From: Micromonospora ureilytica
GTDB taxonomy: Bacteria; Actinomycetota; Actinomycetes; Mycobacteriales; Micromonosporaceae
DNA: 64,000 nucleotides
Direction: 5' to 3'
NCBI RefSeq assembly: GCF_015751765.1
Contig: NZ_JADOTX010000001.1
Coordinates: 1,054,001-1,118,000, forward strand
Shown here: positions 39,505 through 64,000 of the stretch, piece by piece
Position numbering within the stretch: the first letter of the stretch is position 1
Layout of the letters: each line of letters begins with the position of its first letter
Position numbers and translations under genes: made by a program
Notes under the pieces: generated by a model
Told to the model about the DNA's origin: nothing
Database searches by the model: none
What the model saw: only the letters and a program-made list of their open reading frames with translations

Positions 39505-39514
39505 GAGGAGCGCG

Positions 39515-42215: not shown

Positions 42216-42270
42216 TCAACATACAGGGAAATCATCAGGCGGGGAATCGCCGTTGCAGTTCGCCAGACGG

Positions 42271-48200: not shown

Positions 48201-50298
48201 CGAGGCTGTCGAGGTCACATCCGGCGGTCCCGTCGGCGCGGTCCTGCCCGACGACGTCCGGGGCCGCTGTGCGGCGCGGATGTTCACCGTCCGGTGGCGC
48301 CACGTCTCGCCGCCCGCCGCAGACCCGGTCGGGAGGTGGCTCGTCGTCCCGCTCACGGGCGCGTCCGTCGAGGCGGGTCGCCGGGTGGCCGACGCTCTGC
48401 TGCTCGGTGGTGCCGAGGTGACCTGGCAGCCATCGTCCGCCGGCTCCGACCGCGACCGGGTCGCCGGCGCGTCGGCCGCCGCCGTGCCTGAGGCCGACGC
48501 GCCGTGGGACAAGGTTCCGCCGGACCACGGGATCGTGCTGGTCGCGGCAGCGGTACCCGGCAGCGTGCCGGGCGACGTCCTGGCCGCGCGTGTGTTGCGG
48601 GCGGCCCGTCAGCTGCGCACCGGGCTGGACGTGGCACCCGGGCGGCTGCGCGTCGTCACCGCCGGGGCGCACCAGCCGACCGGCTCCGGGGAGGTCGACC
48701 CGGCGCAGGCGGCGGTGTGGGCCGCCGGGCGGGTGCTCGCGATGGAGGCGGCGCCCGGGTGGGGCGGTCTGGTCGACATCGACCCGCACGCACTCGGCAC
48801 CGCCCCGGGCCAGGCAGGTGCCGTGCCGGGCCAGGCAGGTGCCGAACCCGGCTGGGCCGCCGGCGACGCGGCCGAACTGGCCGGGGCCCTGACGGCGCCG
48901 CGTGCGCCCGGCATTGAGCCGGCCGAGGACGAGCTGTGCCTGCGCGACGGCACCTGGTACGCCCCCCGGCTGTCCTCGGCGGACCCGCTGCCCGCCGCGC
49001 TACCCGAGATCGACTGCGACCCGGACGCCTGGTATCTGGTGACCGACGCGTTGCACCCCGCCAGCCGGCCGTTCGTCGACGTGCTCGTGCGCCGTGGCCT
49101 GCGCCGGCTGATCGTCGGAGAGACCGCGCCAGCCGACACCGCGCCAGCCGACACCGCGCCAGCCGACACCGCGCCAGCCGACACCGCGTCGCTCGACGCC
49201 GTGCCCTCCCACGATGCCCGGCTCGGCGAGCTGGCGGCGGCCGGCGTGGCGGTACGACGAATCGACCTCACGGCGGCAGACCTCACGGCGGCAGACCTCA
49301 CCGCCGAACTGACGCCGGACGCGTTGGGCGCCCCGCTCGGTGGCGTGCTGCTGATCGGCTTGCCCGTGCCGGCGGCCCCGCTGGACACCGTCGACGCGGC
49401 TGCGGTGTCGGCGGCCATGCGCTGGGCTGACCTCGTACACCGGCTGGACCTGGCGACCCGCGAACTCGCGCCGCGGCTGTTCTGCGTGACCGGGGCGGCG
49501 GCCGCGATCTGGGGGGCCACCGGGATGGCCGCGCGGGCCGCGGCCGAGGGCGCGGTCGACGCGGTGACCGCCGCCCGGGAGCGGGCTGGCCAGCCCGTCC
49601 AGGTGGTCCGGTTCATGCCCGGCGACGACCCCGCCCAGCTGTCCCGCCGGGACCGGATGGTGATGGTCGACAGTGGTCTGCGGCCGCTGGCCGGGGCGGA
49701 CGTCGGCGAGGCCTTCGAGGTCGCTCTCCGGGCGGGCCTGACCCAGGTCACGGTCGCGGACGTCGACGGTCCGCGGTACGCGCGGGTGTGCCGAGAGCGG
49801 GCCTACCGCGCGTTCCTGGCCGAGGTCGGCACCGGATCTCCGGTGACCGGCGACCGAGCGGAGGAGGCCGCACCGACTGTCGCGCCGCTGGCCGCCGTCG
49901 TGCTGGCGCTGCCGACCGAGCAACGCGTCGAGCACCTGTTGGAAACGGTGCTCGACGCGGTGGCCGAGGTGCTGGGCGAGACGTCCGGGGTGGATGTCAT
50001 GGCCAACCAGGGCTTCTTCGATCTCGGCATGGATTCGGTGATGTCGCTGAGCCTGCGCGGATGGCTCGAGCGGGCGCTGGGGGTCGCCCTGCCGGCGACG
50101 CTGACCTTCGAGTTCCCCAACGCGGCGGCGCTCACCGATCACCTCCTGACGCTGCTCGACCCGACGGCCGCTCCGGTTGGTGGCCCGCCGCCCACCACGG
50201 CCCCGGGCGTGCTGGACGGGGCCGGCGACGACCTGGCGGCGATGCCCGAGGACGAGCTGATCGCGCGGTTGTCGGCCGCGATAGCGGAGGGAGGCTGA
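42271..50298 (+). CDS. Type I PKS: KS-AT-ACP-KS-AT(dead)-KR(dead)-ACP
   Basis: Modular PKS of about 2,675 residues. Module 1: KS (about 20-440; Cys 185 in TAACASS, His in VEAHSTGT and NFGHLDSAAG), AT (about 540-840; Ser 635 in GHSMGE; specificity segment YAFHS, a hybrid of malonyl HAFH and methylmalonyl YASH), ACP (Ser 1059 in GMDSL) after a Gly/Asn/Ser-rich linker. Module 2: KS (about 1150-1575; Cys 1322 in DTACSSS, EAHGTGT, GHLEAAAG), an AT remnant (GHSxGE replaced by GRGVGE, small subdomain missing), a KR remnant without its NADPH glycine motif or catalytic Tyr, and ACP (Ser 2589 in GMDSV). No loading module is present, so the first KS should take a chain from a free ACP. The C-terminus (MPEDELIARLSAAIAEGG) looks like a docking helix. 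ATG 42271 is my choice; TTG 42187 or ATG 42295 are possible. Confidence 0.92.
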   Translation: MSVGGAVGMRRDRRSASRVGGTDIAVVGVGCRFPGDVDDLDSLWRVLQEGRDVTGRVPAGRPGAASLDTVGVGGFLPDIDRFDAEFFGVSPREAREIDPQQRLLLTLAWQAMEHSGVPLTTWSGSNTGVYFGILAMDYAVLHARTLGVDQVGAHYASGKEFSFGSGRVSYTFGLNGPCMTLTAACASSLLAVHLAARALVAGDCDTALAGGVNLMVGPELTLYMRQIQALSPQGLCRPFDAAADGVVRGEGGAVVVLKRYADAVADGDQIWGVIKGSATNHDGRSAGLTAPSAVAQEQLLRNALRDAGVAPAEVGYVEAHSTGTPLGDPIELSALAAVFGPERPPERPLLIGSHKANFGHLDSAAGILGLLKGLLVARTGMVPPQIKLVQQTPRFGWSGSGLAVPTTRTALPHAPQHLTGVSAFGLSGSNVHVVLAAPDQDRPTPAPEPVRWPVLVLSGPTEAALADQVTRHAELLDDSSVAEPDQLGDLLFSAGARRSHHTHRLAVTGATAADLRATLARRQDGEASPKTVAAELLHDGPAYVVHVFSGQGSQYPGMGLDLYRADPTMRATLDECDALMRRIARWSLLEELGRRTGSRLADTRFAQPAIFALQVGLSRLWARWGVPPDSVVGHSMGEVAAACAAGALPLEDALRVIVLRGELLQQAAGSGRMAAIALSADEVTAATERHADEVVIAAVNGPRSVVVAGPAAALDRLLAELTAAGVRCVPLAGDYAFHSPAVAAYGDELERQLDGLTPAKPQVPILSSVDPAAGAPVPDPAYWGRNVREPVLFWSAVDRLLARRPAVFLELGPHPVLTGPLSAALAARSRPGAAVGTLTRGRPPAESMTRALAEAYAAGVAVDWAAVHGEGRRYVPLPPVRLAGEKYWLPSPPIQNGASVAQASPDAVRVGSQGPADPGPGARGLAGLTLGELRAEVRLIAPDGTVVQTLAGVGAPVAATRNGGGNGSGNGSRDSRAVGDGHVAAADANRTGATSGEAGGGVGNGGRAATNGNRPRAGTPSERERIAALVNDAAAEALGHEPGRRLARGRGFFELGMDSLALVALVSRLERDLGAVLGAAVGIEHPTIDALTDHLLAEVLPAAPPLQPGPPLRPESPPTRDAVVAPAAGALVALATSGTPGPTVAVARGSAEPVAIVGIGCRLPQADGPEQFWQLLSDGVDATGDVPADRWDAEALLGAGPGAPGTVVTRRGGFLDRIDLFDNAFFRISAREARAMDPQQRLFLEVAWEALEDAGITLEHRRAARVGVFVGMNTTDYQQLLTRRARDVDLYYGTGNSFSGTAGRLSYFLDVRGPSLAIDTACSSSLVAVHLAVQSLRAGEADVALAGGVNVMVGPTVHLAMSAAGALSPDGRCKTFDAGADGYGRGEGAGVVVLKPLARAERDGDRIYAVIRGSAVNHNGASGGLTVPGGEAQEELIRSALAVGGVAASDVDYLEAHGTGTVLGDAVEVRAIARALGGGRQPDRPLLVGSVKTNIGHLEAAAGIAGLIKTALALRHGELPAHLHVSQPTNQVDWARLPVRITTSTTPWPATGGRPRVAGVSAFGFTGTNAHVVLSGPSAPASSSANGAGRPTPGVGPASRAGAIISGRAHLLVLSAAGGGALAAARDGFARALSAPADADIGDICYAAAARRAHLEHRLAVVGHGAAELVAGLSGGPTAHQGVAPGDAARLMIVYGDRVAVDWRALERDEPAFRGALDALDDGGVVRAALAANGAERGEPVAVLAIQLALAAVWEAYGLRPDAVAGRGVGELAAACAAGALDQAQAIRATLGGATVTVAPPVDSPAAPVLWLASVGGPLSGPHPLTARTPVFDWDALSASLAAAGEYELLAIAGGPDAAAVTAKRQPGLAAVGVDLNRPEGFLDAVAGLHVRGVGIHWETLFGRRPYRAVLPRYPWQRRRHWADAPGQAASPAPAGTPAAVVRTASVTTAPAATTAAAVPAVSAVAVSAVTVSAVAREAVEVTSGGPVGAVLPDDVRGRCAARMFTVRWRHVSPPAADPVGRWLVVPLTGASVEAGRRVADALLLGGAEVTWQPSSAGSDRDRVAGASAAAVPEADAPWDKVPPDHGIVLVAAAVPGSVPGDVLAARVLRAARQLRTGLDVAPGRLRVVTAGAHQPTGSGEVDPAQAAVWAAGRVLAMEAAPGWGGLVDIDPHALGTAPGQAGAVPGQAGAEPGWAAGDAAELAGALTAPRAPGIEPAEDELCLRDGTWYAPRLSSADPLPAALPEIDCDPDAWYLVTDALHPASRPFVDVLVRRGLRRLIVGETAPADTAPADTAPADTAPADTASLDAVPSHDARLGELAAAGVAVRRIDLTAADLTAADLTAELTPDALGAPLGGVLLIGLPVPAAPLDTVDAAAVSAAMRWADLVHRLDLATRELAPRLFCVTGAAAAIWGATGMAARAAAEGAVDAVTAARERAGQPVQVVRFMPGDDPAQLSRRDRMVMVDSGLRPLAGADVGEAFEVALRAGLTQVTVADVDGPRYARVCRERAYRAFLAEVGTGSPVTGDRAEEAAPTVAPLAAVVLALPTEQRVEHLLETVLDAVAEVLGETSGVDVMANQGFFDLGMDSVMSLSLRGWLERALGVALPATLTFEFPNAAALTDHLLTLLDPTAAPVGGPPPTTAPGVLDGAGDDLAAMPEDELIARLSAAIAEGG
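49126..49185 (+). repeat. Four exact 15-bp tandem repeats inside the dead KR
   Basis: The unit gcgccagccgacacc occurs four times in a row, encoding repeated APADT, within the degenerate ketoreductase region. A two-copy 24-bp repeat lies near 48808-48842 and a 15-bp repeat near 49266-49300. Such in-frame slippage repeats suit a region under weak structural constraint. Confidence 0.9.
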
Positions 50299-50299: not shown

Positions 50300-53200
50300 A
50301 TGTCGACGCAGACTTCGCGTACCCCGGACAGCCGACGGCTGATGGTCGAGGCGCTGCGCACCATCGAGGACCTGCGCGGCCGTCTGGCCAGCAGCCGTGA
50401 CGGGTGGCTGGACGAGCCGATCGCCATCGTCGGGATGGCCTGCCGGTTTCCCGGCGGCGCGCAGTCGCCGGAGGAGTTCTGGACGCTGCTGCGCAACGGG
50501 GTGGACACCACCTCGGAGTTCCCGCAGGAGCGCGCCGACGCCCAGTCCTACCACCACCCGGACCCGGAGGAGCCGGGCAAGGCGTACACGATTCGGGGAG
50601 CCTTCCTCGACCAGGTCGACCGGTTCGAGCCGGAGGCGTTCGGCATCTCCCCGCGCGAGGCGCTGGGCATGGACCCGCAGCACCGCATCGCGCTGGAGAT
50701 CTGTTGGGAAGGGTTGGAGCGGGCCGGCTACGCCCCCGACCGGCTCGACGGTTCGCGCACCGGCGTCTACTTCGGGCTGAGCACGACCGACTACGTACGC
50801 GGTCGGCAGGCCGTCGGCGACATCAACGACGTGGATTTCTACCAGCTCACCGGCGAGCCCAGCTTCCTGGCCGGTCGCATCTCGTACCTGCTCGGGTTGC
50901 GGGGGCCGAGCAAGGTCGTCGACACGTCCTGCTCGTCGTCGCTCGTCGCCCTGCACGAGGCGTGCCAGGCGCTGCGGCTGAGGGAGTGCGATCTGGCGCT
51001 GGCGGGCGGGGTGAACCTGCTGCTGTCGCCGTACGGCTTCGTGATGATGAGCAAGTTCCGCGGTCTGTCCGCCGACGGGCGGTGCAAGACCTTCGACGCG
51101 TCGGCCGACGGATACGCCCGCGGGGAGGGCGCCGGCGTCGTGGTGCTCAAGCGGCTGTCCGCCGCGCAGGCGGACAACGACCCGATCATTGCCGTCATCC
51201 GCGGCTCGGCGATCAACCACGACGGTCGCTCCAGCGGCCTCACCGTGCCGAACCCCGTCGCGCAGCAGGACGTGATCGGGGCGGCCATGGCCCAGGCCGG
51301 CGTCGGGCCGGACGGGGTGGACTACGTCGAGGCGCACGGAACGGGCACCTCCCTCGGCGACCCCATCGAGCTGCGCTCGCTGGAAGCCGTCATCGGCCGG
51401 CACCGTCGGTCGGACGACCCGCTGCTGGTGGGCTCGGTCAAGACGAACATCGGGCACCTGGAGCCGGCCGCCGGCATCGCCGGCCTGTTCAAGGTCGTCC
51501 TGGCGATGTCGCACGGGGAGATCCCACCGCACCTGCACCTGACCCAGCCGAACCCGAATCTGGACTGGTCGGGTCTGCACGTGCGGGTTCCCGTGGCGTG
51601 CACGCCGTGGCCGGAGCGGGGTCACCCGCGCACCGGCGGGGTGAGCAGCTTCGGAGCCAGTGGAACCAACGCGCACGTCGTGGTCGCCGCGCCGCCGGCC
51701 GGCGACGCCCGCACCGGCTCGCACCTGTCGCACGGGCTGTTCCTGGCCTCCGCACGTACCGAGGAGGCACTGCGCGAGCTGGCCGACCGGCACGCGCGGT
51801 GGCTGCGTGGTCCCCAGGCGCCGTCCCTCGGCGATGCCTGTTACACCACACACGTCGGCCGCGCGGTGCAGGCCCACGGCCTCGCGGCCACCGCGGCGGA
51901 CACCGAGGAACTCGCGGACGTGCTGTCGGCGTACGCCCAGGGACGCCACCCGCGCGGGCTGACCGTCGCCGCGTTGCCGCGGCGCCGTGAGCGCAAGGTC
52001 GCCTGGCTGTTCACCGGCCAGGGCGCGCAGTACCCGGGCATGGCCCGCGGGCTGCTCGGGAACGCCGCCTTCCGCGCCGCGTTCGAGGAAGCCGCAGCCC
52101 TCTTCGATCCCGAGTTGCTGCGCCCGGTGGCGGACGTGCTGTGGGCCGACGGCCCGACGCCGCTCGACGACACCCGGTACACGCAGCCGGCGCTGTTCGC
52201 GGTGGAGTACGCGCTAGCTCAGATGTGGCTCTCCTGGGGCATGCGGCCGGCCGCGGTGGCCGGCCACAGCGTCGGTGAGCTGGTCGCCGCCTGCGTCGCC
52301 GGCGTGCTGGACCTGCCCGCCGCCGCGACGCTGGTGGCCGCGCGGTCGCGACTGATGGCCGAGCTGCCGCCGGGCGGCGCGATGGCCGCCGCGAGTTGCG
52401 CCGAGGAGGTCGCCGTCGCGGCGATCGACGGGTACGCGGACACGGTCGCCCTCGCGGCGGTCAACGGGCCGGCCGACGTCACGATCTCGGGGGCCACAGC
52501 ACATGTGGACGCCGTCCTGGAACGGCTGGCCGCCGACGGCGTACGCACCCGGCGGTTGGCCGTGTCGCACGCGTTCCACTCGCCGCTGATCCGGCCCATG
52601 CTGGAGCCGTTCCGGGCGGTGTTGGCCGGGCTGTCCTTCCGGCCGCCGCGCATCCCGTTGGCGTCCAACGTCACCGGTCGGCTGTGGGGCGACGACGAGG
52701 TCGGCCCGGACTACTGGCTGCGGCACGCGGCCGGCGCGGTCCGCTTCCGCGAGGGGGTGCGCGCGTTGCACGACGCGGGCGCACGCACCTTCGTGGAGCT
52801 CGGGCCCGCCCCGGTGCTGACGACCCTGGCGACGCGCTCCCTCGCGGGCGAGGCGGACTGCGCGTTCGTGCCGACCCTGCGGCGGGGCGGTGCGGACCTG
52901 CGGGACGTGCTCAGCGCGGTCGGCACCGTCAGCCTGCGGGGTTCCCGGCCGGACTGGCGGGCCTTCCACGAGGGCGAGGACGTGCGCGCGGTACCGCTGC
53001 CGACGACGCCGTGGCGCGGGGCGCACTACTGGTTCCGCGAGGTCGGGCGGGCGGCCGCGCCGGTGTCTGCGGCGTCGCCGAATGTCGGCGAGGAGACCGG
53101 GGCCGCCGTCGTGACCGGCGAGGTCCCGGGCGTCGGCCGCCGCCTGTCGGGGCCGGTGCCGGCGTACGAGGTGACACCCGAGGCGTTGCCCGGTGAGCTC

Positions 53201-56200
53201 AGTCTGGGTGTGGTGTTGGACCTGGCTGCCCGCGCCGCCGCGGACTGCCTGGGTGGCGTGTGGCGTTGCGTCGAGGGTCTGACCGCCCACGCCGCGGTTC
53301 CGACCGGCGACCGGGGCCAGTTGCGGCTCACCGTCACGGCGCAGGACGACGGTTCGGCCGCCTGGGAGCTGACCGGGGCCACGGCCGCACGGGAGGCGTT
53401 GGCCGCCCCGTGGATCCGCTACGCCAGCGGGCTGCTGCGTCGCCGGTGGCCGGCGGATCGTCAGTACCCGGACGTTGACGCGACGACTGCGGCGTCCATG
53501 ACGGAGGTTCCCGTGCCGGACGGCGCGGGCTGGCACGAGGTGCTCGAGGCCGCCGGCGTCGCGGTGACGGCGGCGGGCGGGGCGGCACCGCCGGGTCCGG
53601 CGCACCTGTCGACGGTGGCCGGCTGTGGCGCGCTTGGCCTAGCGCGCGTGGATGGCACCGCTGTCGGAAGTGGCACGGTGCCACCGGGCGGCGTACGGGC
53701 GGTGCGGGTCCGCGCCGGGTCCGTCCGGCTGGTCGACGACGCGGTGACCGGCTCCGTCGACCTGCTCGACGGATCGGGCGTCCAGATCGGATACGCGCAG
53801 GACGTGACAGTGGCGCCGGTGCCGGCTGCGACGCCGTGGGAGGAACCGGCCGACCTGCTCTACGACCAGACCTGGGTGCCGCTGACCGGGCCGTCCCCGC
53901 AGCCCACGGCCGACCTGGCCGGACGGAGCTACCTGCTGGTGGCCGACCCGGCGGGCCAGGATGCCGCGCTGACGACCCGGCTGACCGCGCTGCTGCGGCA
54001 GCAGGGCGCCGTGGTGACCGTGGCGGCGCCGCCGGTGGTGGGGGAGGGGCCGGACTGCCGGCCCGACTCCGACGGCGTACGGGACCTGGTGACCACCTGG
54101 TCCACCGGCCCCGGCCGGCCCTGGCTCGCGGTGGTCATGACCGGGCTCGACGCACCGGCGTCCGCCCACTGCGACGCCTGGAGCCTGGAGGAGTACGCCG
54201 GGCGCGCCGACCTGATGACACTTGCCCTTCTCCGCGAGCTGCTCGACCACTCGGAGTGCGCGGACGCCCGGCTCACAGTGGTCACCCGGGCGGCGATGCG
54301 AGTGCCGACGACACCGGCCACCGACACCACCGACCGGGCCGCTGGCAGCTCGGACGCCGCAGCTCCGGTCGCCGGCACGTTGTGGGGCCTGGGCCGGGTG
54401 CTGGCACTGGAACACCCCGACCGGTGGGGCGGCGCGATCGACCTCGACCCGGACCGGCCGACCGGTGAGGAGCACCAGCTGCTCGCCGCGCTGACCACGG
54501 GCGGGCTGACCACGGACGGGTCGCCCGGCGGGGAGGACGGATACGAGGATCAGCAGGCGCTGCGCGCCGACCGCCGGTACGCGCTGCGCCTGGTGCCCGC
54601 ACCGCTGCCGCCCGAGGCTCTGCGCCGTCGGCCGCCGGTCCACGGCGACGCCACGTACCTGATCACCGGGGCTTTCGGTGGGATCGGCCTGACCGTCGCG
54701 GAGTGGCTGGCCCGCGCCGGCGCCGGCCGTCTGGTGCTGCTCGCCCGCACGCCGCTGCCGGAGCGGGACGGTTGGGCCGACTCGACCGGCGAGGCGGCGC
54801 GGCGGGTGTCCGCGGTGCGGCGACTGGAGCAGCTGGGCGCGGCGGTCGACGTGGTGGCCGCGGACGTCGTCGACGAGGCGGCGATGACCGCCGTGTTCGC
54901 CGCGTTGGATGCGGCTCCTCTGCCGCTGCGCGGGGTCGTCCACGCCGCCGGGGTGTCCGAGCCCGAGTTCGCCCGCGAGGCCACCGGCGCGGCGTACCGG
55001 CGGGTTTGGCGGCCCAAGGTGATCGGCGGCTGGCTGCTGCACCGGCTCACCCGCGGCGCGGAGCTGGACTTCTTCGTCGGGTTCTCGTCGATCGCCGCGA
55101 CCTGGGGTTCGCAGCACCTGGCCAGCTATGCGGCCGGCAATGCGTTCCTCGACGCGCTGGCCGGGCACCGCAACGCGGCCGGCCTGCCGGCTCTGTCCGT
55201 CGCGTGGGGCCCATGGGACCTGCCCTCCGCGCTGTTCGGCGACGAGGTCATGGCGTTCCTGCGGGCCACCGGGCTGCGGCCGCTGCCGGCCGAACAGAGC
55301 ATGCGGCTGCTCACTGCGCTCGCGGCTGGCGACGCCCCGCAGCGGGTGGTCTGCGCGGTGGACTGGTCGGTGTTCAAGCCGGTCATGCAGGCCCGCACGG
55401 AGCGGCCGATGCTGCGCGGGATCACCGTCGACGAGACGGCGACTGACGACTCCGGAGCGGCGCCCCTGTTGGCCGGCCTGCGCGCCGAGCGCGACCCGCG
55501 CCGGGTGCGCGCGACGCTCGGCTCGTACGCGGTCGAGCTGGCGACGGACGTCCTGGGCGCCGGTGCGGGCGCCCTCGACGAGGAGAGCGACGTGCTGGCC
55601 AGCGGCATGGACTCGCTGATGGTCATGGACGCGGTCCGGCGCTGCCGGCGCGACCTCGGCCTGACCGTGCGGGCCGGTGACCTGCTCACGCTGGCCACCC
55701 CGGCGCAGTGGGCCGACCTGTTCGCCGGGCTGCTGGCCGACCGGCTCGGTGACCCGGCCGCCGACGCCGTCGGTGAGCCCGCCGACGATCAGGCCGGCGA
55801 CGATCCAGCGGGTGACCTGGCCAGCGACCCGGCGTGGATCGCGGGTGACGTCACCCTCGCGCCGGATGTCCGGGTGATCGGCGCGGCGCCGGCCCGGGTA
55901 CGCGACCCCCGGCACGTCCTGCTGACCGGTGCCACCGGCTTCGTCGGCGGCTATCTGCTGCACACCCTGCTCGAGTCGACCGCGGCTCACGTGTCGTGCC
56001 TGGTCCGGTGCGCCGACGAGGCGGTCGGGCTGCGGCGGGTGCTGGACAACATGGAGCGCTACCTTCCCCGGCCAGCCATGGCAGCCGACCGGATCACCGT
56101 GCTGCCGGGTGACCTGGGGCAGCCCAGGCTGGGCCTGTCTGCGGACCGGTACGACGAACTCGCCGAGCAGCTGGACGGGATCTACCACTGTGGCGCCCGG

Positions 56201-57028
56201 GTGCACTTCGGCTACAGCTACCAGCAGCTCCGGCCGGACAACATCGCGGGCACGGCGGAGATTCTGCGGCTGGCCGCGCGAGGCCGCCCGACCGCTGTGC
56301 ACCACGTCTCCACGTACGGCATCTGGGGCCTGCCGGCCCCCGGCCGGGATGTCGTCGGTGAGGACGACGACATCGCCACGGCCGGCCGGCTGGTGACCGG
56401 CTACGTGCAGACCAAGTGGGCGGCGGAGCGGCTGGTCGAGTTGGCCCGCGCACGCGGGGTCCCGGTCGACATCTACCGACCCGGTCGGGTGCTCGGCGAC
56501 TCCCGTACCGGCGCCAGCCTGACCACCCACTTCACGACGCGGGTGATGAAGGGCTGCGTGCAGCTGGGGATGGCGCCGGACATCGACATCAAGGTGGAGA
56601 TGACGCCTGTCGACTACGTGGCGAGCGCGCTTGTGCACATTTCCCGGCATGGCCCGGCCCTCGGAGGCACGTACCACCTGGTGAGCCCGCACAAGCTGCT
56701 GTTCGCGGACGTGGTGCGCGCGCTGCGCCGGCACGGCTTCGGGGTCGAGGTCGTGCCGGTAGAGGAGTGGTGGCAGGCGCTCAAGGCGTCCTATGCCGTC
56801 GGCACGAACGAGCTGCACCCCGTCATGCCGGTGGTGGAGGAGTTCGTGGTCGGTGGCGAGGAGGCCGTCCACTACGCCGTCGACAACACCGAGGAACAGC
56901 TGCGCGGCACCGACGTCCGATGCCCGCCGTTGGACGACGACCTGCTCGACACCTACCTGCGCTGGATGGTGCGGACCGGCTACCTGCCCGCGCCCAGAGC
57001 GGCCGATAAAGGAGCTCGAACGACATGA
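50300..57028 (+). CDS. Type I PKS: KS-AT-DH(dead)-KR-ACP-thioester reductase
   Basis: Terminal PKS of 2,242 residues. A helical N-terminus (about 1-35) resembles a docking domain for the preceding PKS, whose gene ends one base earlier. Domains: KS (about 38-460; Cys 211 in DTSCSSS, EAHGTGT, GHLEPAAG), malonyl-type AT (about 565-910; Ser 657 in GHSVGE, HAFHS), a DH-like region (about 950-1180) without the HxxxGxxxxP His motif, KR (about 1450-1700; GAFGGIG for NADPH, FSSIAATWG and YAAGNAF, with Trp eight residues before Tyr as in A-type KRs), ACP (Ser 1772 in GMDSL) and a C-terminal reductase (about 1870-2230; TGATGFVGG, YVQTKW). There is no thioesterase domain, so release should be NADPH-dependent to an aldehyde or alcohol. 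The product should keep a beta-hydroxyl from the last module. GGAGGGAGG precedes the ATG. Confidence 0.93.
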   Translation: MSTQTSRTPDSRRLMVEALRTIEDLRGRLASSRDGWLDEPIAIVGMACRFPGGAQSPEEFWTLLRNGVDTTSEFPQERADAQSYHHPDPEEPGKAYTIRGAFLDQVDRFEPEAFGISPREALGMDPQHRIALEICWEGLERAGYAPDRLDGSRTGVYFGLSTTDYVRGRQAVGDINDVDFYQLTGEPSFLAGRISYLLGLRGPSKVVDTSCSSSLVALHEACQALRLRECDLALAGGVNLLLSPYGFVMMSKFRGLSADGRCKTFDASADGYARGEGAGVVVLKRLSAAQADNDPIIAVIRGSAINHDGRSSGLTVPNPVAQQDVIGAAMAQAGVGPDGVDYVEAHGTGTSLGDPIELRSLEAVIGRHRRSDDPLLVGSVKTNIGHLEPAAGIAGLFKVVLAMSHGEIPPHLHLTQPNPNLDWSGLHVRVPVACTPWPERGHPRTGGVSSFGASGTNAHVVVAAPPAGDARTGSHLSHGLFLASARTEEALRELADRHARWLRGPQAPSLGDACYTTHVGRAVQAHGLAATAADTEELADVLSAYAQGRHPRGLTVAALPRRRERKVAWLFTGQGAQYPGMARGLLGNAAFRAAFEEAAALFDPELLRPVADVLWADGPTPLDDTRYTQPALFAVEYALAQMWLSWGMRPAAVAGHSVGELVAACVAGVLDLPAAATLVAARSRLMAELPPGGAMAAASCAEEVAVAAIDGYADTVALAAVNGPADVTISGATAHVDAVLERLAADGVRTRRLAVSHAFHSPLIRPMLEPFRAVLAGLSFRPPRIPLASNVTGRLWGDDEVGPDYWLRHAAGAVRFREGVRALHDAGARTFVELGPAPVLTTLATRSLAGEADCAFVPTLRRGGADLRDVLSAVGTVSLRGSRPDWRAFHEGEDVRAVPLPTTPWRGAHYWFREVGRAAAPVSAASPNVGEETGAAVVTGEVPGVGRRLSGPVPAYEVTPEALPGELSLGVVLDLAARAAADCLGGVWRCVEGLTAHAAVPTGDRGQLRLTVTAQDDGSAAWELTGATAAREALAAPWIRYASGLLRRRWPADRQYPDVDATTAASMTEVPVPDGAGWHEVLEAAGVAVTAAGGAAPPGPAHLSTVAGCGALGLARVDGTAVGSGTVPPGGVRAVRVRAGSVRLVDDAVTGSVDLLDGSGVQIGYAQDVTVAPVPAATPWEEPADLLYDQTWVPLTGPSPQPTADLAGRSYLLVADPAGQDAALTTRLTALLRQQGAVVTVAAPPVVGEGPDCRPDSDGVRDLVTTWSTGPGRPWLAVVMTGLDAPASAHCDAWSLEEYAGRADLMTLALLRELLDHSECADARLTVVTRAAMRVPTTPATDTTDRAAGSSDAAAPVAGTLWGLGRVLALEHPDRWGGAIDLDPDRPTGEEHQLLAALTTGGLTTDGSPGGEDGYEDQQALRADRRYALRLVPAPLPPEALRRRPPVHGDATYLITGAFGGIGLTVAEWLARAGAGRLVLLARTPLPERDGWADSTGEAARRVSAVRRLEQLGAAVDVVAADVVDEAAMTAVFAALDAAPLPLRGVVHAAGVSEPEFAREATGAAYRRVWRPKVIGGWLLHRLTRGAELDFFVGFSSIAATWGSQHLASYAAGNAFLDALAGHRNAAGLPALSVAWGPWDLPSALFGDEVMAFLRATGLRPLPAEQSMRLLTALAAGDAPQRVVCAVDWSVFKPVMQARTERPMLRGITVDETATDDSGAAPLLAGLRAERDPRRVRATLGSYAVELATDVLGAGAGALDEESDVLASGMDSLMVMDAVRRCRRDLGLTVRAGDLLTLATPAQWADLFAGLLADRLGDPAADAVGEPADDQAGDDPAGDLASDPAWIAGDVTLAPDVRVIGAAPARVRDPRHVLLTGATGFVGGYLLHTLLESTAAHVSCLVRCADEAVGLRRVLDNMERYLPRPAMAADRITVLPGDLGQPRLGLSADRYDELAEQLDGIYHCGARVHFGYSYQQLRPDNIAGTAEILRLAARGRPTAVHHVSTYGIWGLPAPGRDVVGEDDDIATAGRLVTGYVQTKWAAERLVELARARGVPVDIYRPGRVLGDSRTGASLTTHFTTRVMKGCVQLGMAPDIDIKVEMTPVDYVASALVHISRHGPALGGTYHLVSPHKLLFADVVRALRRHGFGVEVVPVEEWWQALKASYAVGTNELHPVMPVVEEFVVGGEEAVHYAVDNTEEQLRGTDVRCPPLDDDLLDTYLRWMVRTGYLPAPRAADKGARTT

Positions 57029-58764
57029 CTGATCATCCGCGGAGCACGCCGGATTACGACGTGGCGATCATCGGGTCCGGCCTGTCCGGCACGATGCTGG
57101 CCGCGTGCCTGGCCCGCAACGGCGCGAAGGTGCTGATCGTCGACGGCGCAACCCATCCCCGTTTCGCCATCGGCGAGTCGACCATCCCGGCCACGTCGAT
57201 GATGATGCGGCTGGTCAGCGAGCGGTACGGGGTTCCCGAGATCAAGTGGCTGTCCACCTTCGAGGGCGTCCAATCGAAGATCAACACCACGTCGGGTGTC
57301 AAGCGCAACTTCGGGTTCGTCTACCACCGGCCCGGGGAGCGCCAGGACCCGCGCGAGACGCACATGTTCCCGATCCCGAAGGTCACCCACACCGAGAGCC
57401 ACTTCTACCGCCAGGACATCGACAACTGGATGCTCACGGTAGCGGCGAAGTACGGCACCACGGTCCGCCAGCAGGTGCGGATCACCGGTGTGGAGGTGGA
57501 TGACGACGGGGTGACGCTCGCGCACACCGGCGGGCACTTCCGGGCCAAGTTCGTGGTGGACGCCAGCGGCTACCGCTCGGTCCTGGCCGAGCAGTTCGGC
57601 CTACGGGAGGAACCGTCCCGGTTCCGACACCAGTCGCGATCGCTGTTCACCCACATGGTCGGTATCCGCCCGTACGACGAGATCGCCCCCAAGTCCCGCT
57701 ACGGGCATCCCAGTCCATGGCACGACGGCACGCTGCACCACCTGTTCCCCGGCGGCTGGATGTGGGTCATCCCGTTCGACAACCACCTACGGGGCACCAA
57801 CGACCTGTGCAGTGTCGGCCTGCAGCTCGACCCGCGGGTGCACCCGGTGCCGGACTGCTCCCCGGAGGAGGAGTTCCGTCGCTTCATCGCGCGGTTCCCG
57901 GACATCGAACCGCAGTTCGCCGAGGCTCGGTCGGTACGCGACTGGACGCGTACCGGCCGGCTGCAGTATTCGTCGCGGCAGACGGTCGGCTACCGGTGGT
58001 GCCTCACCTCGCACGCGGCCGGGTTCCTGGACCCACTGTTCTCCCGGGGGCTGTCGAACTCCCTGGAGACGATGCACGCGCTTGTGCACCGCCTGCTGTC
58101 CGCGATCGCCGACGACGACTTCTCGGTCGAGCGGTTCGAGTACATGCAGGAGTTCGAGCAGGGTCTGCTGGACTTCAACGACGACCTGGTCGCCAACGCC
58201 TACACGTCGTTCGGCGACTGGCGGCTGTGGGACGCCTGGTTCCGCATCTGGTCGCTCGGGCAGTTCATCGCCACCTTCGAGGTGAACCGGGCGTACGCCC
58301 GGTTCCTCGACACCCGCGACCCGGCGGTGCTGGCCCCGCTGGAGCGGCCGTGGTGGCGGGGTCGGGTCATTCCGCAGGACTCGCCGTACGGGGCGGTGAT
58401 GGAACTGCTGCAGCAGGTCAACGACATGACCCGCGCGGTGCAGGAGGGCCGGGCGGAGTCCGGGGCGACCGCCGAGGAGCTGCTCCGGCTGTTGCGCGAG
58501 GCGGACTTCGTGCCACCCGCGTGGGGGCTGGCGGACCCGAACAACCAGTGGACCGACGCCAGCTTCCTCGAAATCGGTCGGACCCTGCGCTGGGCTCGCA
58601 AGACGGCACCGAAAGCCGTCGGCGACCTCACCTACGACGGTCTCACCCTGTTCATGAAGAAGCGCTTCTCGCGCGGCGAGTTCGCCGTCGGCGAAGAGCT
58701 CAAGCACCTTCTCGCGCGCTGGCCCGTGATCGGTAAGCGGCTACGCGTTCCGACGCCGAAGTGA
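57025..58764 (+). CDS. Flavin-dependent halogenase 1 (all motifs intact)
   Basis: FAD-dependent halogenase-family protein of 579 residues. Landmarks in order: GSGLSG FAD-binding glycines (17-22), GESTIP (about 49-54), a conserved Lys region GVKRNFGFVYH (about 90-100), the halogenase signature WxWxIP as GWMWVIPF (about 244-251) and FLDPLFSRG (about 334-342), which fits the second FDH signature FxxPxxSxG. It should generate hypohalous acid with reduced flavin and chlorinate or brominate a substrate, perhaps carrier-bound, as in the CmlS-like branch. No flavin reductase is seen in the window. ATG overlaps the PKS stop as ATGA and follows AAAGGAG, so it is co-translated with the PKS. Of the four paralogues it is the most likely true halogenase. 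Confidence 0.88.
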   Translation: MTDHPRSTPDYDVAIIGSGLSGTMLAACLARNGAKVLIVDGATHPRFAIGESTIPATSMMMRLVSERYGVPEIKWLSTFEGVQSKINTTSGVKRNFGFVYHRPGERQDPRETHMFPIPKVTHTESHFYRQDIDNWMLTVAAKYGTTVRQQVRITGVEVDDDGVTLAHTGGHFRAKFVVDASGYRSVLAEQFGLREEPSRFRHQSRSLFTHMVGIRPYDEIAPKSRYGHPSPWHDGTLHHLFPGGWMWVIPFDNHLRGTNDLCSVGLQLDPRVHPVPDCSPEEEFRRFIARFPDIEPQFAEARSVRDWTRTGRLQYSSRQTVGYRWCLTSHAAGFLDPLFSRGLSNSLETMHALVHRLLSAIADDDFSVERFEYMQEFEQGLLDFNDDLVANAYTSFGDWRLWDAWFRIWSLGQFIATFEVNRAYARFLDTRDPAVLAPLERPWWRGRVIPQDSPYGAVMELLQQVNDMTRAVQEGRAESGATAEELLRLLREADFVPPAWGLADPNNQWTDASFLEIGRTLRWARKTAPKAVGDLTYDGLTLFMKKRFSRGEFAVGEELKHLLARWPVIGKRLRVPTPK

Positions 58765-58787
58765 AGCCGATGAATAAGGAGCCCATG

Positions 58788-60548
58788 ATGGAAGGTGCGG
58801 CCGCGCACAACGGGTCGTTCGACGTGGTGGTGATCGGCTCCGGGCTGGCAGGCTCCACCCTGGCGGCGTGCCTGGCCCGCAACGGCGCGCGCACGCTCGT
58901 GCTGGACGCCGGCACACACCCGCGATTCGCCGTCGGCGAGTCGACCATCCCGTACACCTCCATGGCGATGCGCCTGATCAGCGAGCGGTACGGGGTGCCG
59001 GAGATCAAGTACCTGAGCACCTTCGAGTCGGTGTACGCGCACATCAACACGACAGGCGGGGTGAAGCGGAACTTCGGCTTCGTCTATCAGCGGCCGGGCG
59101 AGCAACAGCGGCCCGAAGAATCCAACATGTTCCAGATTCCGAAGATCCTGAACACCGAGAATCACTTCTTCCGGCAGGACATCGACAACTTCATGCTCAC
59201 CGTCGCGGCGAAGCACGGCGCCGTGATCCGGCAGCAGGTGCGTGTCGCGAACGTGCAGGTCGACGACGACGGTGTGACGCTCGACGTCGGCCCCGGCGCG
59301 CCGGTTCGGGCCCGCTACGTGGTGGACGCCAGCGGTTTCCGCTCGGCGCTGGCCGAGCAGTTCGATCTGCGTGAGGAGCCGACCCGGCTGGAACACCACT
59401 CGCGGTCGCTGTTCACCCACATGGTCGGCGTGCGGCCGTACGACGACTTCGCCCCGCGAAGCGAGTACGGCAATCCGACCCGGTGGCACGAGGGCACGCT
59501 GCACCACATCTTCGAGGGCGGTTGGATGTGGGTGATCCCGTTCGACAACCACCCCCGGTCCACCAACGACCTGTGCAGCGTCGGTGTGCAGTTCGACCCG
59601 CGGACGCACCCGGTGCCGGACTGCTCGCCGGAGGAGGAGTTCCGCCGGTTCCTCGAGCGGTTCCCGGGCATCGCCCAGCAGTTCACGAACGCCACGCCGG
59701 TGCGCGAGTGGGTGCGTACCGGCCGCCTGCAGTACTCGCCGAAGAAGACGGTCGGCTATCGCTGGTGTCTGATGTCGCACGCCGCGGGCTTCGTCGACGC
59801 GCTGTTCTCCCGCGGCCTGTCCAACACCATGGAGATCATCAACGCGTTGACCCAGCGGCTGCTGGACGCGCTGAAGGACGACGACTTCGCCGTCGAGCGG
59901 TTCGAGTACGTGCAGGAGCTCGAACAGGGCCAGCTCGACTTCAACGACGATCTGGTCAACAACGCGTACATCGCGTTCCGGGACTGGGACCTGTGGGACG
60001 CCTGGTTCCGGGTCTGGGCGCTGACCCAGATCCTCTCCACGTTCGAGATCAGCAGGGGCTACTCGCTCTACTCCAAGACCCGTGATCCGGCCGTGTTGCG
60101 GCGGATGGAACGGCCGTGGTGGCGGGTGGACCTGCGCGAGTTCGACAGGTCCAAGGTCGACGACCCGGACCACGCCGCGGTGCTCGAGTTCCTGGCCGAC
60201 GTCAGCCGGATGATGCGCGCCGTCGACGCGGGGCAGGCCCAGCCCAAGGACGTCGCCAACCAGATCCGCGACCGGCTCGCACGCGCGCCGTTCGTGCCGC
60301 CGGCGTTCGGGCTGGCCGACCCGTCCGTCCGGATCACTGGCGCCTCCGCCGCCAAGGTGCTCGGCACCCTGCGCTGGGCAAAGCGGGACGCGCCGCCGGC
60401 GATCGGCGAGCTCACCTACGAGGGCCTGACCCTCTTCATGCGCAAGCGCTTCGCCCGGGGCGAGTTCGAGCCGGTCGAGGAGATCAAGCAGAAGCTCGCC
60501 GGCTGGCCCGTGCTCGGCTCCCGGCTGCGCGTTCCCGAGCCGAAGTAA
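58788..60548 (+). CDS. Flavin-dependent halogenase 2 (one signature altered)
   Basis: Close paralogue of the preceding protein, about 586 residues, sharing long identical stretches (for example GVKRNFGFVY and NDLCSVG). It keeps GSGLAG, GESTIP and WxWxIP (GWMWVIPF, about 245-252), but the second signature reads FVDALFSRG (about 335-343), with Ala where FxxPxxSxG has Pro. Whether this lowers halogenation or changes substrate is unknown. AAGGAG at 58776 supports a start at ATG 58788 (or 58785); a GTG at 58761 overlapping the upstream stop is also in frame. Activity as halogenase is likely but less sure than for the first paralogue. Confidence 0.85.
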   Translation: MEGAAAHNGSFDVVVIGSGLAGSTLAACLARNGARTLVLDAGTHPRFAVGESTIPYTSMAMRLISERYGVPEIKYLSTFESVYAHINTTGGVKRNFGFVYQRPGEQQRPEESNMFQIPKILNTENHFFRQDIDNFMLTVAAKHGAVIRQQVRVANVQVDDDGVTLDVGPGAPVRARYVVDASGFRSALAEQFDLREEPTRLEHHSRSLFTHMVGVRPYDDFAPRSEYGNPTRWHEGTLHHIFEGGWMWVIPFDNHPRSTNDLCSVGVQFDPRTHPVPDCSPEEEFRRFLERFPGIAQQFTNATPVREWVRTGRLQYSPKKTVGYRWCLMSHAAGFVDALFSRGLSNTMEIINALTQRLLDALKDDDFAVERFEYVQELEQGQLDFNDDLVNNAYIAFRDWDLWDAWFRVWALTQILSTFEISRGYSLYSKTRDPAVLRRMERPWWRVDLREFDRSKVDDPDHAAVLEFLADVSRMMRAVDAGQAQPKDVANQIRDRLARAPFVPPAFGLADPSVRITGASAAKVLGTLRWAKRDAPPAIGELTYEGLTLFMRKRFARGEFEPVEEIKQKLAGWPVLGSRLRVPEPK

Positions 60549-60570
60549 ACCGAGAAAATTGGAGTGCACG

Positions 60571-62238
60571 GTGAGTGAATTGATAGAGGCCGAGAAGGTC
60601 ACGTACGACGTCGCGATTCTCGGAGCGGGGTTCGCCGGCTCGATGCTCGGCGCGATCCTGGCGCGCAACGGCGCGAAGGTGTTGCTGGTCGACGCCAAGG
60701 CGCACCCGAAGTTCGCCATCGGCGAGTCCACCATCCCCAACATGCTGGTGTCGTTGCGCACCATGTCCGAGCGCTACAAGGTGCCGGAGCTGATGACCCT
60801 GGCGACGCTGACCGCCTGCCAGAAGATCATCTCGCCCTGGCACGGCAAGAAGGACCACTTCGCCTTCCTGAACCACCAGGAGGGCAAGCAGCAGGATCCG
60901 AAGCAGGTCACCATGTTCAACTTCCCGAGCCTGCTGCACGAGACGCCGCACATGTACCGGCAGGACACCGACGCGTACCTGTTCCACGCGGCGATCAAGT
61001 ACGGGTGCACGGCGCGGGTGAACTTCACGATCGCCGACGTCGACTTCGACGACTCCGGTGTGACTGTCAGCTCCACCCGGGGCGAGCAGTTCCGCAGCCG
61101 GTACGTGGTGGACGCCAGTGGTTACCGTTCGCCGCTGGCCGAGAAGTTCGCCCTGCGTGAGGACCCGTGCCGCTACAAGCACCACTCGCGCGCCATCTGG
61201 AACCACATGATCGACCTCAAGACCACCGACGAGGTGTTCAAGCGCACCGGCGCGGACAAGCCTCCGGTGCCGTTCTACGAGGGCACCGTGCACCACCTGT
61301 TCCCGCGGGGCTGGTCGTGGGTGATCGCGTTCAACAACCACAAGGACTCCAAGAACCCGCTGTGCAGCGTCGGCCTGACGATGGACCCACGTATGTACCC
61401 GAAGACGCCCGGCATGTCGCCGGAGGAGGACTTCTGGAAGCACATGCAGCGGTTCCCGGGCATGGCCGCGCAGTTCGAGGGCGCCCGGCCGATGCGGGAG
61501 TGGGTGGGCACCGACCGGGTGCAGTACTCGTCCAAGACCACCGTCGGCGACCGCTGGGTGCTGCTGGCCCACGCCGCGGCGTTCATCGACCCGCTGTTCT
61601 CCCGCGGCCTGTCCAACACCTGCGAGGCGGTCAACGTGCTGGCCTGGCGGATCCTGCGGGCGGTCGGCGACGACGACTTCTCGGCCGACCGGTTCGAAGG
61701 GGTGAACACCCGCCAGCAGGCGCTGTTCGACGGCAACGACAAGTTGGTGAACGCCGCATACGCCTCGTTCGAGAACTACGGGCTGTGGACGGCCGTCTTC
61801 CGGATCTGGGCGTGGGGCTCGAACGCCGGCACCTTCCGGGCCCACGAGGCGTACCGCCGCTGGCGCTCCACCGGCGACGAGCGGCATCTGAACGAGCTGG
61901 AGGAGGTGAAGAACCCCGGCCTGCACTGGTCCGACCACGAGGGCTATGGCGAGCTGTTTGAGGACATGGTCAAGCAGTGCGGTGACTTCGAGGCGGGGAC
62001 GATCACCGGCGAGCAGGCGACGGACGCCCTCTACGACCACCTCAACCGCGCGCCCTTCGTGCCGGACCACTGGGGCTGGAAGGACCGCAACCTGCGGTTC
62101 ATCAACCCGACCCCAGTCAAGATCGCCCGAACCATGCTGTGGGCCGCGACCAAGGCGCCGCCGGACGTGCGACGGCTGATGCTCGGCTTCCTCCGCGAGG
62201 CCGGCAAGGAGCAGCTGCTGGGCCGGAAGATCTTCTAG
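60571..62238 (+). CDS. Flavin-dependent halogenase-like protein 3 (WxWxIA)
   Basis: Third family member, about 555 residues, more diverged than the first two. FAD glycines (GAGFAG) and GESTIP are intact, and FIDPLFSRG keeps the FxxPxxSxG signature (about 338-346), but the WxWxIP motif reads GWSWVIAF (about 247-254), with Ala replacing Pro. The region around the Lys also differs (GKKDHFAFLNH). It may be a halogenase with altered substrate or a flavin monooxygenase. I start at GTG 60571 because GGAG lies six bases upstream; a TTG at 60559 is in frame but overlaps that site. It is spaced 22 bases from the preceding gene and eight bases before the next. Confidence 0.83.
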   Translation: MSELIEAEKVTYDVAILGAGFAGSMLGAILARNGAKVLLVDAKAHPKFAIGESTIPNMLVSLRTMSERYKVPELMTLATLTACQKIISPWHGKKDHFAFLNHQEGKQQDPKQVTMFNFPSLLHETPHMYRQDTDAYLFHAAIKYGCTARVNFTIADVDFDDSGVTVSSTRGEQFRSRYVVDASGYRSPLAEKFALREDPCRYKHHSRAIWNHMIDLKTTDEVFKRTGADKPPVPFYEGTVHHLFPRGWSWVIAFNNHKDSKNPLCSVGLTMDPRMYPKTPGMSPEEDFWKHMQRFPGMAAQFEGARPMREWVGTDRVQYSSKTTVGDRWVLLAHAAAFIDPLFSRGLSNTCEAVNVLAWRILRAVGDDDFSADRFEGVNTRQQALFDGNDKLVNAAYASFENYGLWTAVFRIWAWGSNAGTFRAHEAYRRWRSTGDERHLNELEEVKNPGLHWSDHEGYGELFEDMVKQCGDFEAGTITGEQATDALYDHLNRAPFVPDHWGWKDRNLRFINPTPVKIARTMLWAATKAPPDVRRLMLGFLREAGKEQLLGRKIF

Positions 62239-62246
62239 GAGAGCGA

Positions 62247-64000
62247 ATGACTACCACCGAACCCGGTGCCACGGTGTCGTACGACGTCGTGATCCTGGGC
62301 AACCATCTGGCGACTGGCCTGCTCGCCACGGTGCTGGCCAAGCAGGACCTGCGGGTCCTGCTCGTCGGCTCGCCCGACGACACGGTGTTGCCGTCGGGCG
62401 ACAGCACCGTGCCGTACACGACAGCTGTGCTGCACCTCCTGGCCGAGCGGTTCGACGTGCCGGAGATCGCCTCCTTCGCCCACTTCGAGGACCTACCGGA
62501 GCAGGTACGCAGGAACAGCGGGATCAAGAAGAGCCTCGCGTTCCTGCACCACACCGCGGGCCGTGGGCACGATCCGGCGCACGCCGTGCAGTTCCACGTG
62601 CCGGGGGAGCACAGCGAGTGGCACCTCTACCGGCCGGTCGTCGACGAGTACGCCCGGGAGTTGGCCGTCAGCTACGGCGCGTCGGTCCTACCGGACCGGG
62701 CGTCCGCCACCGAGGTTCGGCTGGCGTCCGACGCCGTACACCTGACCTTCGGTGGTGGGCAGACGGCGACCGCGCGGTTCGTGGTGGACGCGTGCGGAGC
62801 GGACTCACCCCTGCGGGCGGTGACCGGCGACGGCGATCCGGGCACGCTGACGTTGCGGTCCCGGATGATGCACGCCTACCTGCGCGACGTCCGGAAGTTC
62901 GAGGAGTGCAGCCGGCTCACCGACTACCACCGGGCGACCGCCTGGTCGCGGGGGACAGTGCATCACCTCTTCGACGGCGGCTGGATCCAGGTGGTGGACT
63001 TCCGCAACCACCACGACGCGGTCAACGACCTGTGCAGCGTCACAGTGGGGCTGGACCCCGACCGGTTCGACGACCTGCCGGCCGGCCCGGAGGAGGCGTT
63101 CCGGGCGCTGGTCGCGCGGTTCCCGAGCCTGGCGGAGCAGTTCGCGTCCGCCGCGGTGCAGGGTGACTGGACCACCTCACCCAGCTGGCAGCGTCGGGCG
63201 GCGGTGACCCACGGGCCGCGGTGGTTCGCGATGGAGCGGTCGGCATGCCGCACGGACGAGTTCCTGTCCCGCGACGTGACGATGACGGCGGAGGTGGTCC
63301 ACGCGCTCGGCGCGGCGCTGCCGCGCGCGGTGCGCGACGAGCAGGCGGCGGGCGCCGCGTTGGCCGAGGTGGCGGCCTTCCAGGACGCCCTGATCGAGTT
63401 CAACGACCAGATGCTGGCCGCGGCGCGTACGGCCTGCGGCAGCTTCGCGCTGTGGAACGCGTACAGCCGGGTCTGGCTGCTCTGGCAGATCCTGGCCCAC
63501 CTGTCGCTGAAGCGGGCGACAAACGATGCCGTCGCGGCCGGGACGTGGGATCCGGTCGAGCAGTTCGCCGACGGCGGGCTGTGGTTCCGCACCCCGGACG
63601 GCCTGCGCCAGATGTTGGACTGGTTCTTCGGGGTGTTCGCCCGGGTACGCGACGGTGGGCTGGGGCAGACCGAGGCGGCTGACATGATCTTCCGGGAGCT
63701 GCGCCGGGCGCGGTTCGTGCCGCCGCTGTACCGCTTCGGCGACCCGGACGCGCGGTACTACCACTTCACCAAGGCCCGTCGCCTCCTGATGGTGGCGTGG
63801 GTCATGACGGTGGCGCCCGCGGACTTCAAGCGGCTGCTGACCAAGGACAACGTGACCGGCCGGCGAGATGACGCGCCGGTGCCGACCCCCGCTCGGGGGC
63901 CGGTCCCGGCCGGCGACGGGCGGGTGGAAACCAACGGTGACGGGCGCGCGGACGGCTCGGCCGCCGGCGCGCCCGGCGTCACTCAGCCAGGTCGGCGGTG
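62247..64000 (+). CDS. Halogenase-family pseudoenzyme 4, partial
   Basis: Fourth family member; at least 584 residues, cut by the right edge without a stop. Its fold-wide similarity is clear (VILGN start, GDSTVP for GESTIP, RFVVDACGADSPL, GTVHHLFDGGW, NDLCSVTVGLD), yet every key motif is lost: the FAD GxGxxG reads GNHLAT (about 18-23), WxWxIP reads GWIQVVDF (about 244-251), and FxxPxxSxG is replaced by TDEFLSRD. The frame is uninterrupted, so it is not a simple pseudogene. It probably cannot bind FAD normally and may be a structural partner or substrate-presenting subunit for the active paralogues. The C-terminus carries an extra Gly/Pro/Asp-rich tail not seen in the others. GGAGAG precedes the ATG. 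Confidence 0.85.
   Translation, partial: MTTTEPGATVSYDVVILGNHLATGLLATVLAKQDLRVLLVGSPDDTVLPSGDSTVPYTTAVLHLLAERFDVPEIASFAHFEDLPEQVRRNSGIKKSLAFLHHTAGRGHDPAHAVQFHVPGEHSEWHLYRPVVDEYARELAVSYGASVLPDRASATEVRLASDAVHLTFGGGQTATARFVVDACGADSPLRAVTGDGDPGTLTLRSRMMHAYLRDVRKFEECSRLTDYHRATAWSRGTVHHLFDGGWIQVVDFRNHHDAVNDLCSVTVGLDPDRFDDLPAGPEEAFRALVARFPSLAEQFASAAVQGDWTTSPSWQRRAAVTHGPRWFAMERSACRTDEFLSRDVTMTAEVVHALGAALPRAVRDEQAAGAALAEVAAFQDALIEFNDQMLAAARTACGSFALWNAYSRVWLLWQILAHLSLKRATNDAVAAGTWDPVEQFADGGLWFRTPDGLRQMLDWFFGVFARVRDGGLGQTEAADMIFRELRRARFVPPLYRFGDPDARYYHFTKARRLLMVAWVMTVAPADFKRLLTKDNVTGRRDDAPVPTPARGPVPAGDGRVETNGDGRADGSAAGAPGVTQPGRR

Follow-up and report, generated by a model that had tools for sequence, protein, structure and literature searches.

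Four halogenase-family genes behind a polyketide synthase

The window analysed here is a stretch of 64,000 nucleotides of Micromonospora ureilytica (NCBI RefSeq assembly GCF_015751765.1, contig NZ_JADOTX010000001.1, positions 1,054,001 to 1,118,000 of the forward strand). Its right-hand end carries four consecutive genes of the flavin-dependent halogenase (FDH) family, here termed FDH1 to FDH4 (Table 1), which follow a polyketide synthase (PKS) gene, PKS2. The stop codon of PKS2 and the start of FDH1 share an ATGA overlap, FDH1 and FDH2 overlap by 4 bases, and the remaining intergenic gaps measure 8-10 bases; with overlaps and gaps of no more than 10 bases, the four genes are likely to form one transcription unit with the upstream PKS gene. 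FDH3 starts at a TTG (position 60559) or alternatively at a GTG a few codons inward, and the last base of the FDH4 stop codon lies one beyond the window end. The array is quite probably the phenol-type halogenase block of a dichloropyrrole-polyketide cluster of the pyrrolomycin type, like the mcs cluster of Micromonospora sp. RB23 (PMC12670696, J Nat Prod 2025), with FDH4 as a PltD-like aromatizing dehydratase.

All four proteins match the Pfam family PF04820 (Trp_halogenase), FDH4 with 20.5 bits against a curated cut-off of 21. In alignments their identity to FDH1 is far above chance (FDH2 65%, FDH3 44%, FDH4 33%). The regions corresponding to GxGxxG, WxWxIP and FxxPxxSxG read GSGLSG, WMWVIP and FLDPLFSRG in FDH1; GSGLAG, WMWVIP and FVDALFSRG in FDH2; GAGFAG, WSWVIA and FIDPLFSRG in FDH3; and GNHLAT, WIQVVD and RTDEFLSRD in FDH4. 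This agrees with the motif table of an earlier reading made from the letters of the window (the sequence-only reading), which had overlooked a lysine shared by all four proteins (K93 of FDH1). It is the equivalent of Lys87 of PltM, a residue required in that enzyme (PMC6424973).

The best matches of FDH1 in the PDB are the phenol halogenases CtcP (546 bits) and PltM (328 bits), PltA scoring much lower (83 bits); the same two enzymes are closest to FDH4 (225 and 170 bits). CtcP and PltM, both with solved structures, share fold, size and catalytic lysine with FDH1 and FDH4, but act on substrates of their own and, unlike FDH4, have all of GxGxxG, WxWxI and FxxPxxSxG. FDH1 to FDH3 carry the features of active PltM/CtcP-type halogenases, namely GxGxxG, the catalytic lysine, WxWxI and FxxP/AxxSxG, and by their sequences look like working chlorinating enzymes. 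The alanine that replaces proline in FDH2 and the alanine after WxWxI in FDH3 are both common within their groups.

Three separate clades in one array

The motif differences along the array had been taken as stepwise loss of signatures after duplication, a plausible account that the tree and the motif counts contradict. Clade counts come from a locus search in named species genomes, which confirmed 264 places and retained the best 80 of them (78 loci); FDH genes at these loci are stop-to-stop open reading frames with a BLAST score above 150 bits, and weaker or split genes can escape. The tree holds 163 family members, with FDH5-type rows (see below), rows shorter than 380 aa and the loci L013, L014, L016, L023, L025 and L055, taken as repeats of genes from other loci, excluded; the clade sets for motif counts were assigned from it by hand.

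FDH1 and FDH2, FDH3, and FDH4 fall into three separate, well-supported clades (I, III and IV), each common to other genera. Within clade I, FDH2 pairs with the only gene of this clade seen in genome G189, a member of the same family (support 100/99), and FDH1 with clade I genes of the family genomes G208 and G227 and others (97/95). The two are not sisters, and a recent tandem duplication of FDH1 and FDH2 is unsupported. The FxxA state of FDH2 is found in 12 of 20 clade I rows and, outside that clade, in 50 of 91. After WxWxI, 19 of 22 clade III rows have A or G in place of P, and the W and F motifs are missing from all 22 FDH4-type rows. Stepwise loss across the array is rejected on the strength of these three separate clades and of motif states common within groups. 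Two other proposals of the sequence-only reading are probably right: that the paralogues divide roles between them, and that the fourth does not halogenate.

FDH4 as a conserved pseudo-halogenase

The predicted structure of FDH4 retains the halogenase fold, as in CtcP. Clade IV rows with data have lost the second G of GxGxxG and the second W, as well as the F and P of FxxPxxSxG. All 15 core rows with data retain the lysine, as do all five rows of subgroup IV-b; the GxGxxG and lysine counts exclude L107 (from G189, with an out-of-frame N-terminus) and L034 (cut at the locus end). Many residues are invariant in 15/15 clade IV rows, and dN/dS between FDH4 orthologues is 0.09-0.37 in 11 pairs, indicating purifying selection.

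That FDH4 is a decaying pseudogene, as the lost motifs and a G189 orthologue read in two frames (G189:C1:5463903-5465533, L129) might suggest, is highly improbable: the frame here is open over 584 aa, the other clade IV rows are full-length except those of G189 and L034, and both the dN/dS values and the invariant residues speak against decay. In G189 itself, either the gene is dispensable or the break reflects a frameshift or sequencing error. A flavin-dependent activity of FDH4 (as halogenase, oxidase or monooxygenase) despite its changed signatures is rather unlikely. The kept lysine and the CtcP-like predicted fold would fit this, and according to a review a charged residue for the G of Fx.Px.Sx.G occurs among active FDHs and WxWxIP is lacking in some FDHs, Bmp5 for example (PMC8407142), but the clade-wide loss of glycine, tryptophan, phenylalanine and proline described above stands against it.

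FDH4 had also been proposed to be a non-catalytic structural partner, that is, a heteromer subunit of an active halogenase. Its place directly after a clade III gene, here and at several other loci, is consistent with such a role, as are its retained predicted fold, the purifying selection on its orthologues, and the joint naming of Mpy10 and Mpy11 for one coupling reaction (review PMC12942903). Yet at L051, L054, L056, L059 and L060 (the IV-b group) the fetched flanks of the clade IV gene hold no clade III gene; at L034 and L036 it is on the opposite strand, 5-7 kb from a I-III pair, and at L085 it is divergent from the lone other FDH. The residues that are fixed in clade IV also hint at a separate task for it. 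The idea of an obligate partner is weakened by these arrangements, and a partner role is quite unlikely.

FDH4 is an old, conserved relative that most likely aids the completion of an aromatic ring rather than chlorination. It combines, by alignment and predicted fold, a halogenase fold with the absence of FDH motifs, as described for PltD of pyoluteorin biosynthesis, a halogenase homologue from a dichloropyrrole PKS cluster with a reducing last module (PMC12670696, PMC10204065). FDH4-type pseudo-halogenases form an old and conserved group beside PKS genes that contain a ketoreductase (KR). In genome mining, counts of Pfam halogenases can therefore overestimate the number of chlorinations.

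The sister group of clade IV (8 rows; L040-L046, L050) lies directly after a normal FDH in clusters with KR-containing PKS genes, has H or Q for the lysine in 8/8 rows and D for the last G of FxxPxxSxG likewise in 8/8, and may represent further pseudo-halogenases that act as aromatases, as a second set. A metagenome-assembled genome of Telmatospirillum (Pseudomonadota; L094:9941-13439) has a proline ligase and dehydrogenase (52%), a KR-PKS and two paired FDHs, the second of which branches, on a long branch, as sister to clade IV plus its sister group; this is the nearest stand-in found for a proteobacterial PltD. Micromonospora arborensis has two divergent FDHs without the catalytic lysine (L093:8412-9989 (+) and 13373-15052 (-)), apparently an independent loss, together with a proline ligase, a prolyl dehydrogenase and an Mpy16-like FDH (69% to FDH5).

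The surrounding gene cluster

The conserved cluster begins near 33.9 kb of the window and reaches about 14.7 kb past the window end (Table 1). Downstream of FDH4, on locus L009, follow genes for a TetR regulator, a prolyl-PCP (peptidyl carrier protein) dehydrogenase, an AMP ligase, a flavin reductase, an MFS transporter, a PEMT-type protein, a second TetR regulator, a PCP, a fifth halogenase (FDH5) and an HPPD-like protein. The sequence-only reading lacked FDH5, whose best PDB matches are 5buk (Mpy16, 743 bits), ChlB4 (687 bits) and PltA (629 bits), which makes it a predicted pyrrolyl-S-carrier dihalogenase of the PltA/Mpy16 type. The ligase, prolyl-PCP dehydrogenase and PCP provide the set for proline loading and oxidation expected in a pyrrolomycin/mcs-type cluster, and two PKS proteins with three modules and a stand-alone thioesterase (TE) are also present. 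In the second module of PKS1 the acyltransferase (AT) match covers 51 residues, with GRGVG in place of GHSxG, and the KR match reaches 36 bits and lacks the glycine motif; a working AT was looked for in this module and not found. The KR and thioester reductase (TR) of PKS2 have intact cofactor motifs, and Pfam detects no dehydratase (DH) domain in PKS2 at E values up to 10. Judged by its genes, this is a dichloropyrrole-polyketide cluster of the pyrrolomycin (mcs-like) type, for which a dichloropyrrolyl phenyl ketone would be the expected product.

Table 1. Genes of the array and of the surrounding cluster. Positions are those of the window, or of locus L009 where marked. KS, ketosynthase; ACP, acyl carrier protein. 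Percentages refer to the counterpart in genome G189.
Feature	Position	Strand	Length	Remarks
AMP-dependent ligase	33869-35302	+		probable left edge of conserved cluster; 67%
4'-phosphopantetheinyl transferase (PPTase)	35352-35996	-		PF01648; inside conserved block, without listed G189 match
Second stand-alone ketosynthase-like protein	36529-37644	+		62%
Stand-alone ketosynthase (FabF-like)	38200-39504	+		73%
Phytanoyl-CoA dioxygenase-like (PhyH) oxygenase	39515-40444	+		78%
Stand-alone thioesterase (PltG/McsA-like)	41396-42235	-		PF00975, 134 bits; 58% gene at same place
PKS1	42187-50298	+		KS-AT-ACP-KS-(degenerate AT and KR)-ACP; Pfam
PKS2	50300-57028	+		KS-AT-KR-ACP-thioester reductase; Pfam
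FDH1	57025-58764	+	579 aa	phenol-type flavin-dependent halogenase, clade I; PF04820, PDB matches, tree, motifs and Lys93
FDH2	58761-60548	+	595 aa	second clade I halogenase, FxxA variant; PF04820, tree, alignments
FDH3	60559-62238	+	559 aa	clade III halogenase, WxWxIA variant; PF04820, tree, alignments
FDH4	62247-64001 (L009:6247-8001)	+	584 aa	clade IV pseudo-halogenase, proposed aromatizing dehydratase
Prolyl-PCP dehydrogenase	L009:8721-9857			NCBIfam match below its cut-off
AMP ligase	L009:9884-11452			proline assignment by position only
PCP	L009:16040-16318
FDH5, fifth halogenase	L009:16340-17695			8.3 kb further on, outside window

A putative gene at 41483-42187 (+) gave no family, the real gene at this place being the thioesterase on the opposite strand. 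The genes at 33869-40444 (AMP ligase, two KS, PhyH) keep their order in G189 and have no obvious role in pyoluteorin-type chemistry.

The sequence-only reading knew no published pathway with exactly these four genes, a claim overtaken by the mcs cluster. That cluster comprises a TE (mcsA), PKS genes (mcsB/C), phenol-clade FDHs (mcsD-G), regulators (mcsH/O), an adenylation enzyme and a pyrrolidine oxidase (mcsI/J, 'respectively'), a transporter (mcsL), a PEMT-type gene (mcsN) and McsQ, close to PltA and Mpy16; McsG lacks key residues, as does PltD, which is given as an aromatizing dehydratase with reference to Yi et al. 2022 (PMC12670696). The cluster described here likewise has the TE, two type I PKS, four phenol-clade FDHs with the fourth devoid of motifs, regulators, an adenylation enzyme, a pyrrolidine oxidase, a transporter, a PEMT-type methyltransferase and a PltA/Mpy16-type FDH. 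The available text gives no description of mcsK, mcsM and mcsP. The strains differ, the RB23 genome having 6.8 Mb (PMC12670696) and the single-contig genome here 7.10 Mb. Antibiotic clusters of this kind are already known; the point that the available mcs text leaves uncovered is the terminal reductase of PKS2.

Among other relatives, the pyrrolomycin producer Streptomyces (Wenjunlia) vitaminophilus (pyr cluster) has clade I-III pairs at L036 and L037, and at L036 also a clade IV gene, a proline ligase, a prolyl dehydrogenase and a flavin reductase; unlike FDH4, its clade IV gene is on the opposite strand. The pyr cluster reportedly has five halogenases. A pyrrolomycin-like cluster of Phytohabitans rumicis (t1pks-3) shares the pair of stand-alone KS and a PKS with a terminal TD domain, but its last PKS (KS/ATm/DH/KR/ACP-TD) has a DH and its first PKS is shorter; the available text on it does not mention 'halogen' (PMC7692728). 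The available text of the paper on Streptomyces sp. MP131-18 mentions no dichloropyrrole product.

Proposed pathway and chain release

The proposed pathway builds on the observed gene content and order, on the clade membership and motif states of the FDHs, and on the predicted fold of FDH4 and the purifying selection acting on it. Proline would be attached to the PCP and converted to pyrrole by oxidation, and FDH5, of the Mpy16/PltA type, would dichlorinate the carrier-bound pyrrole. PKS1 and PKS2 would then add three malonyl units, of which only the last module would reduce, having the one intact KR and no DH found. The intact terminal TR may release an aldehyde, and aldol closure with dehydration would leave a single phenol oxygen, as in monodeoxypyoluteorin; the stand-alone TE may only edit. 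FDH4 would remove water to aromatize the ring without halogenating, and FDH1 to FDH3, with reduced flavin from the clustered flavin reductase, would chlorinate the phenol ring or join two molecules in the way reported for Mpy10/Mpy11. In pyoluteorin biosynthesis, the KR of PltC reduces the tetraketide and PltG off-loads it before dehydration and aromatization (PMC10204065).

FDH1 to FDH3 may, by analogy, not all be halogenases: a clade I/III pair could couple two molecules oxidatively, as reported for Mpy10 and Mpy11, which are named for bipyrrole coupling (PMC12942903), and the product would then be a dimer. The pairing itself is frequent, a clade III gene directly following the clade I gene in 15 of 20 cases (next FDH of the other five: clade I in two, at L033 after a gap; CtcP-like in two; contig end in one). 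RB23, with a like cluster, is reported to yield pyrrolomycins K and L and monodeoxypyoluteorin, named as an intermediate, and in the available text no dimers (PMC12670696). A coupling role is unlikely here.

The TR domain occupies about residues 1866-2242 of PKS2. The stretches GATGFVG and YVQTK, which we take to be thioester reductase motifs, are intact in it. Together with the stand-alone TE, this gives two possible release enzymes within one cluster. For mcs, chain release is assigned to the TE, and the available text does not mention a 'TR domain' (PMC12670696). The terminal reductase bears on the origin of the mono-hydroxy ring in pyrrolomycins and marinopyrroles, which the same paper credits to the thioesterase.

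Among the loci, a terminal reductase is present at 8/8 clade I loci with the PKS end in view (L027-L033, L047; the count excludes L034, with its PKS cut at the locus end, and L035-L039, with no PKS in view), and missing from all eight KR-containing clade IV loci without clade I (L048, L049, L051, L054, L056, L059, L060, L061). L085 is the exception, with a reductase and no clade I gene in its flank. As the loci share descent, this association is a correlation only. The gene set may tentatively be taken to mark two chemical subtypes, in both of which a clade IV pseudo-halogenase would serve as the aromatase replacing a missing DH domain. In the first, a terminal TR with a clade I/III pair would mean that the chain is released reductively and closed by an aldol reaction, giving a mono-hydroxy phenyl ring; in the second, a PKS ending after the ACP would lead to thioesterase-driven closure and a dihydroxy ring.

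Several points weigh against this scheme. Every reaction and product in it is deduced from the genes, the comparisons with mcs and PltD use published descriptions, not sequences, and the PltD function of FDH4 is assigned by analogy. FDH4 retains the halogenation lysine, which a pure dehydratase does not need, and its G189 orthologue is in two frames. For mcs the adenylation enzyme is named before the oxidase (PMC12670696), whereas the dehydrogenase precedes the ligase here. With the corresponding PKS of P. rumicis annotated with a DH (PMC7692728), 'no DH' may fail for the type, and the TR proposal falls if the TE alone frees the chain.

Distribution in other genomes

In the genus, 10 of 160 genomes (counting the own) gave a match, with a close FDH4 in the own genome only; in six others the match was long, at 29-32%, and in three it was limited to short pieces. 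Among 300 genomes of the family, 40 had a match, with FDH4 orthologues in G189 (63%), G208 (54%) and G227 (54%). In the class (394 genomes), three, including the own, reached clade IV level (at least 870 bits), the next best having 468 bits. A contig scan that used just FDH4 gave no relative; this reflects the limit of its search patterns, since an alignment-based scan gave loci with FDH4 orthologues. In G189, G208 and G227 the FDH4 orthologues are linked with genes of clades III and I, and I-III-IV linkage recurs at several other loci; the outcome that the sequence-only reading had named as refuting, genes dispersed in related strains, did not occur. The G189 cluster has the same gene order from the AMP ligase to a Na+/H+ antiporter, but it has only one clade I gene, and no match to the PPTase or a PAP2 gene was listed for it. 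Two of the plasmid matches, in Azotobacter and Burkholderia pyrrocinia, adjoin a PrnB-type gene and are pyrrolnitrin-type loci, not plt.

At the other end of the window, positions 1-26518 hold three very long minus-strand genes, taken as nonribosomal peptide synthetases from their length and first residues, together with a formyltransferase (24101-25066) and a lysine/ornithine N-oxygenase (25172-26518); this is perhaps a hydroxamate siderophore cluster.

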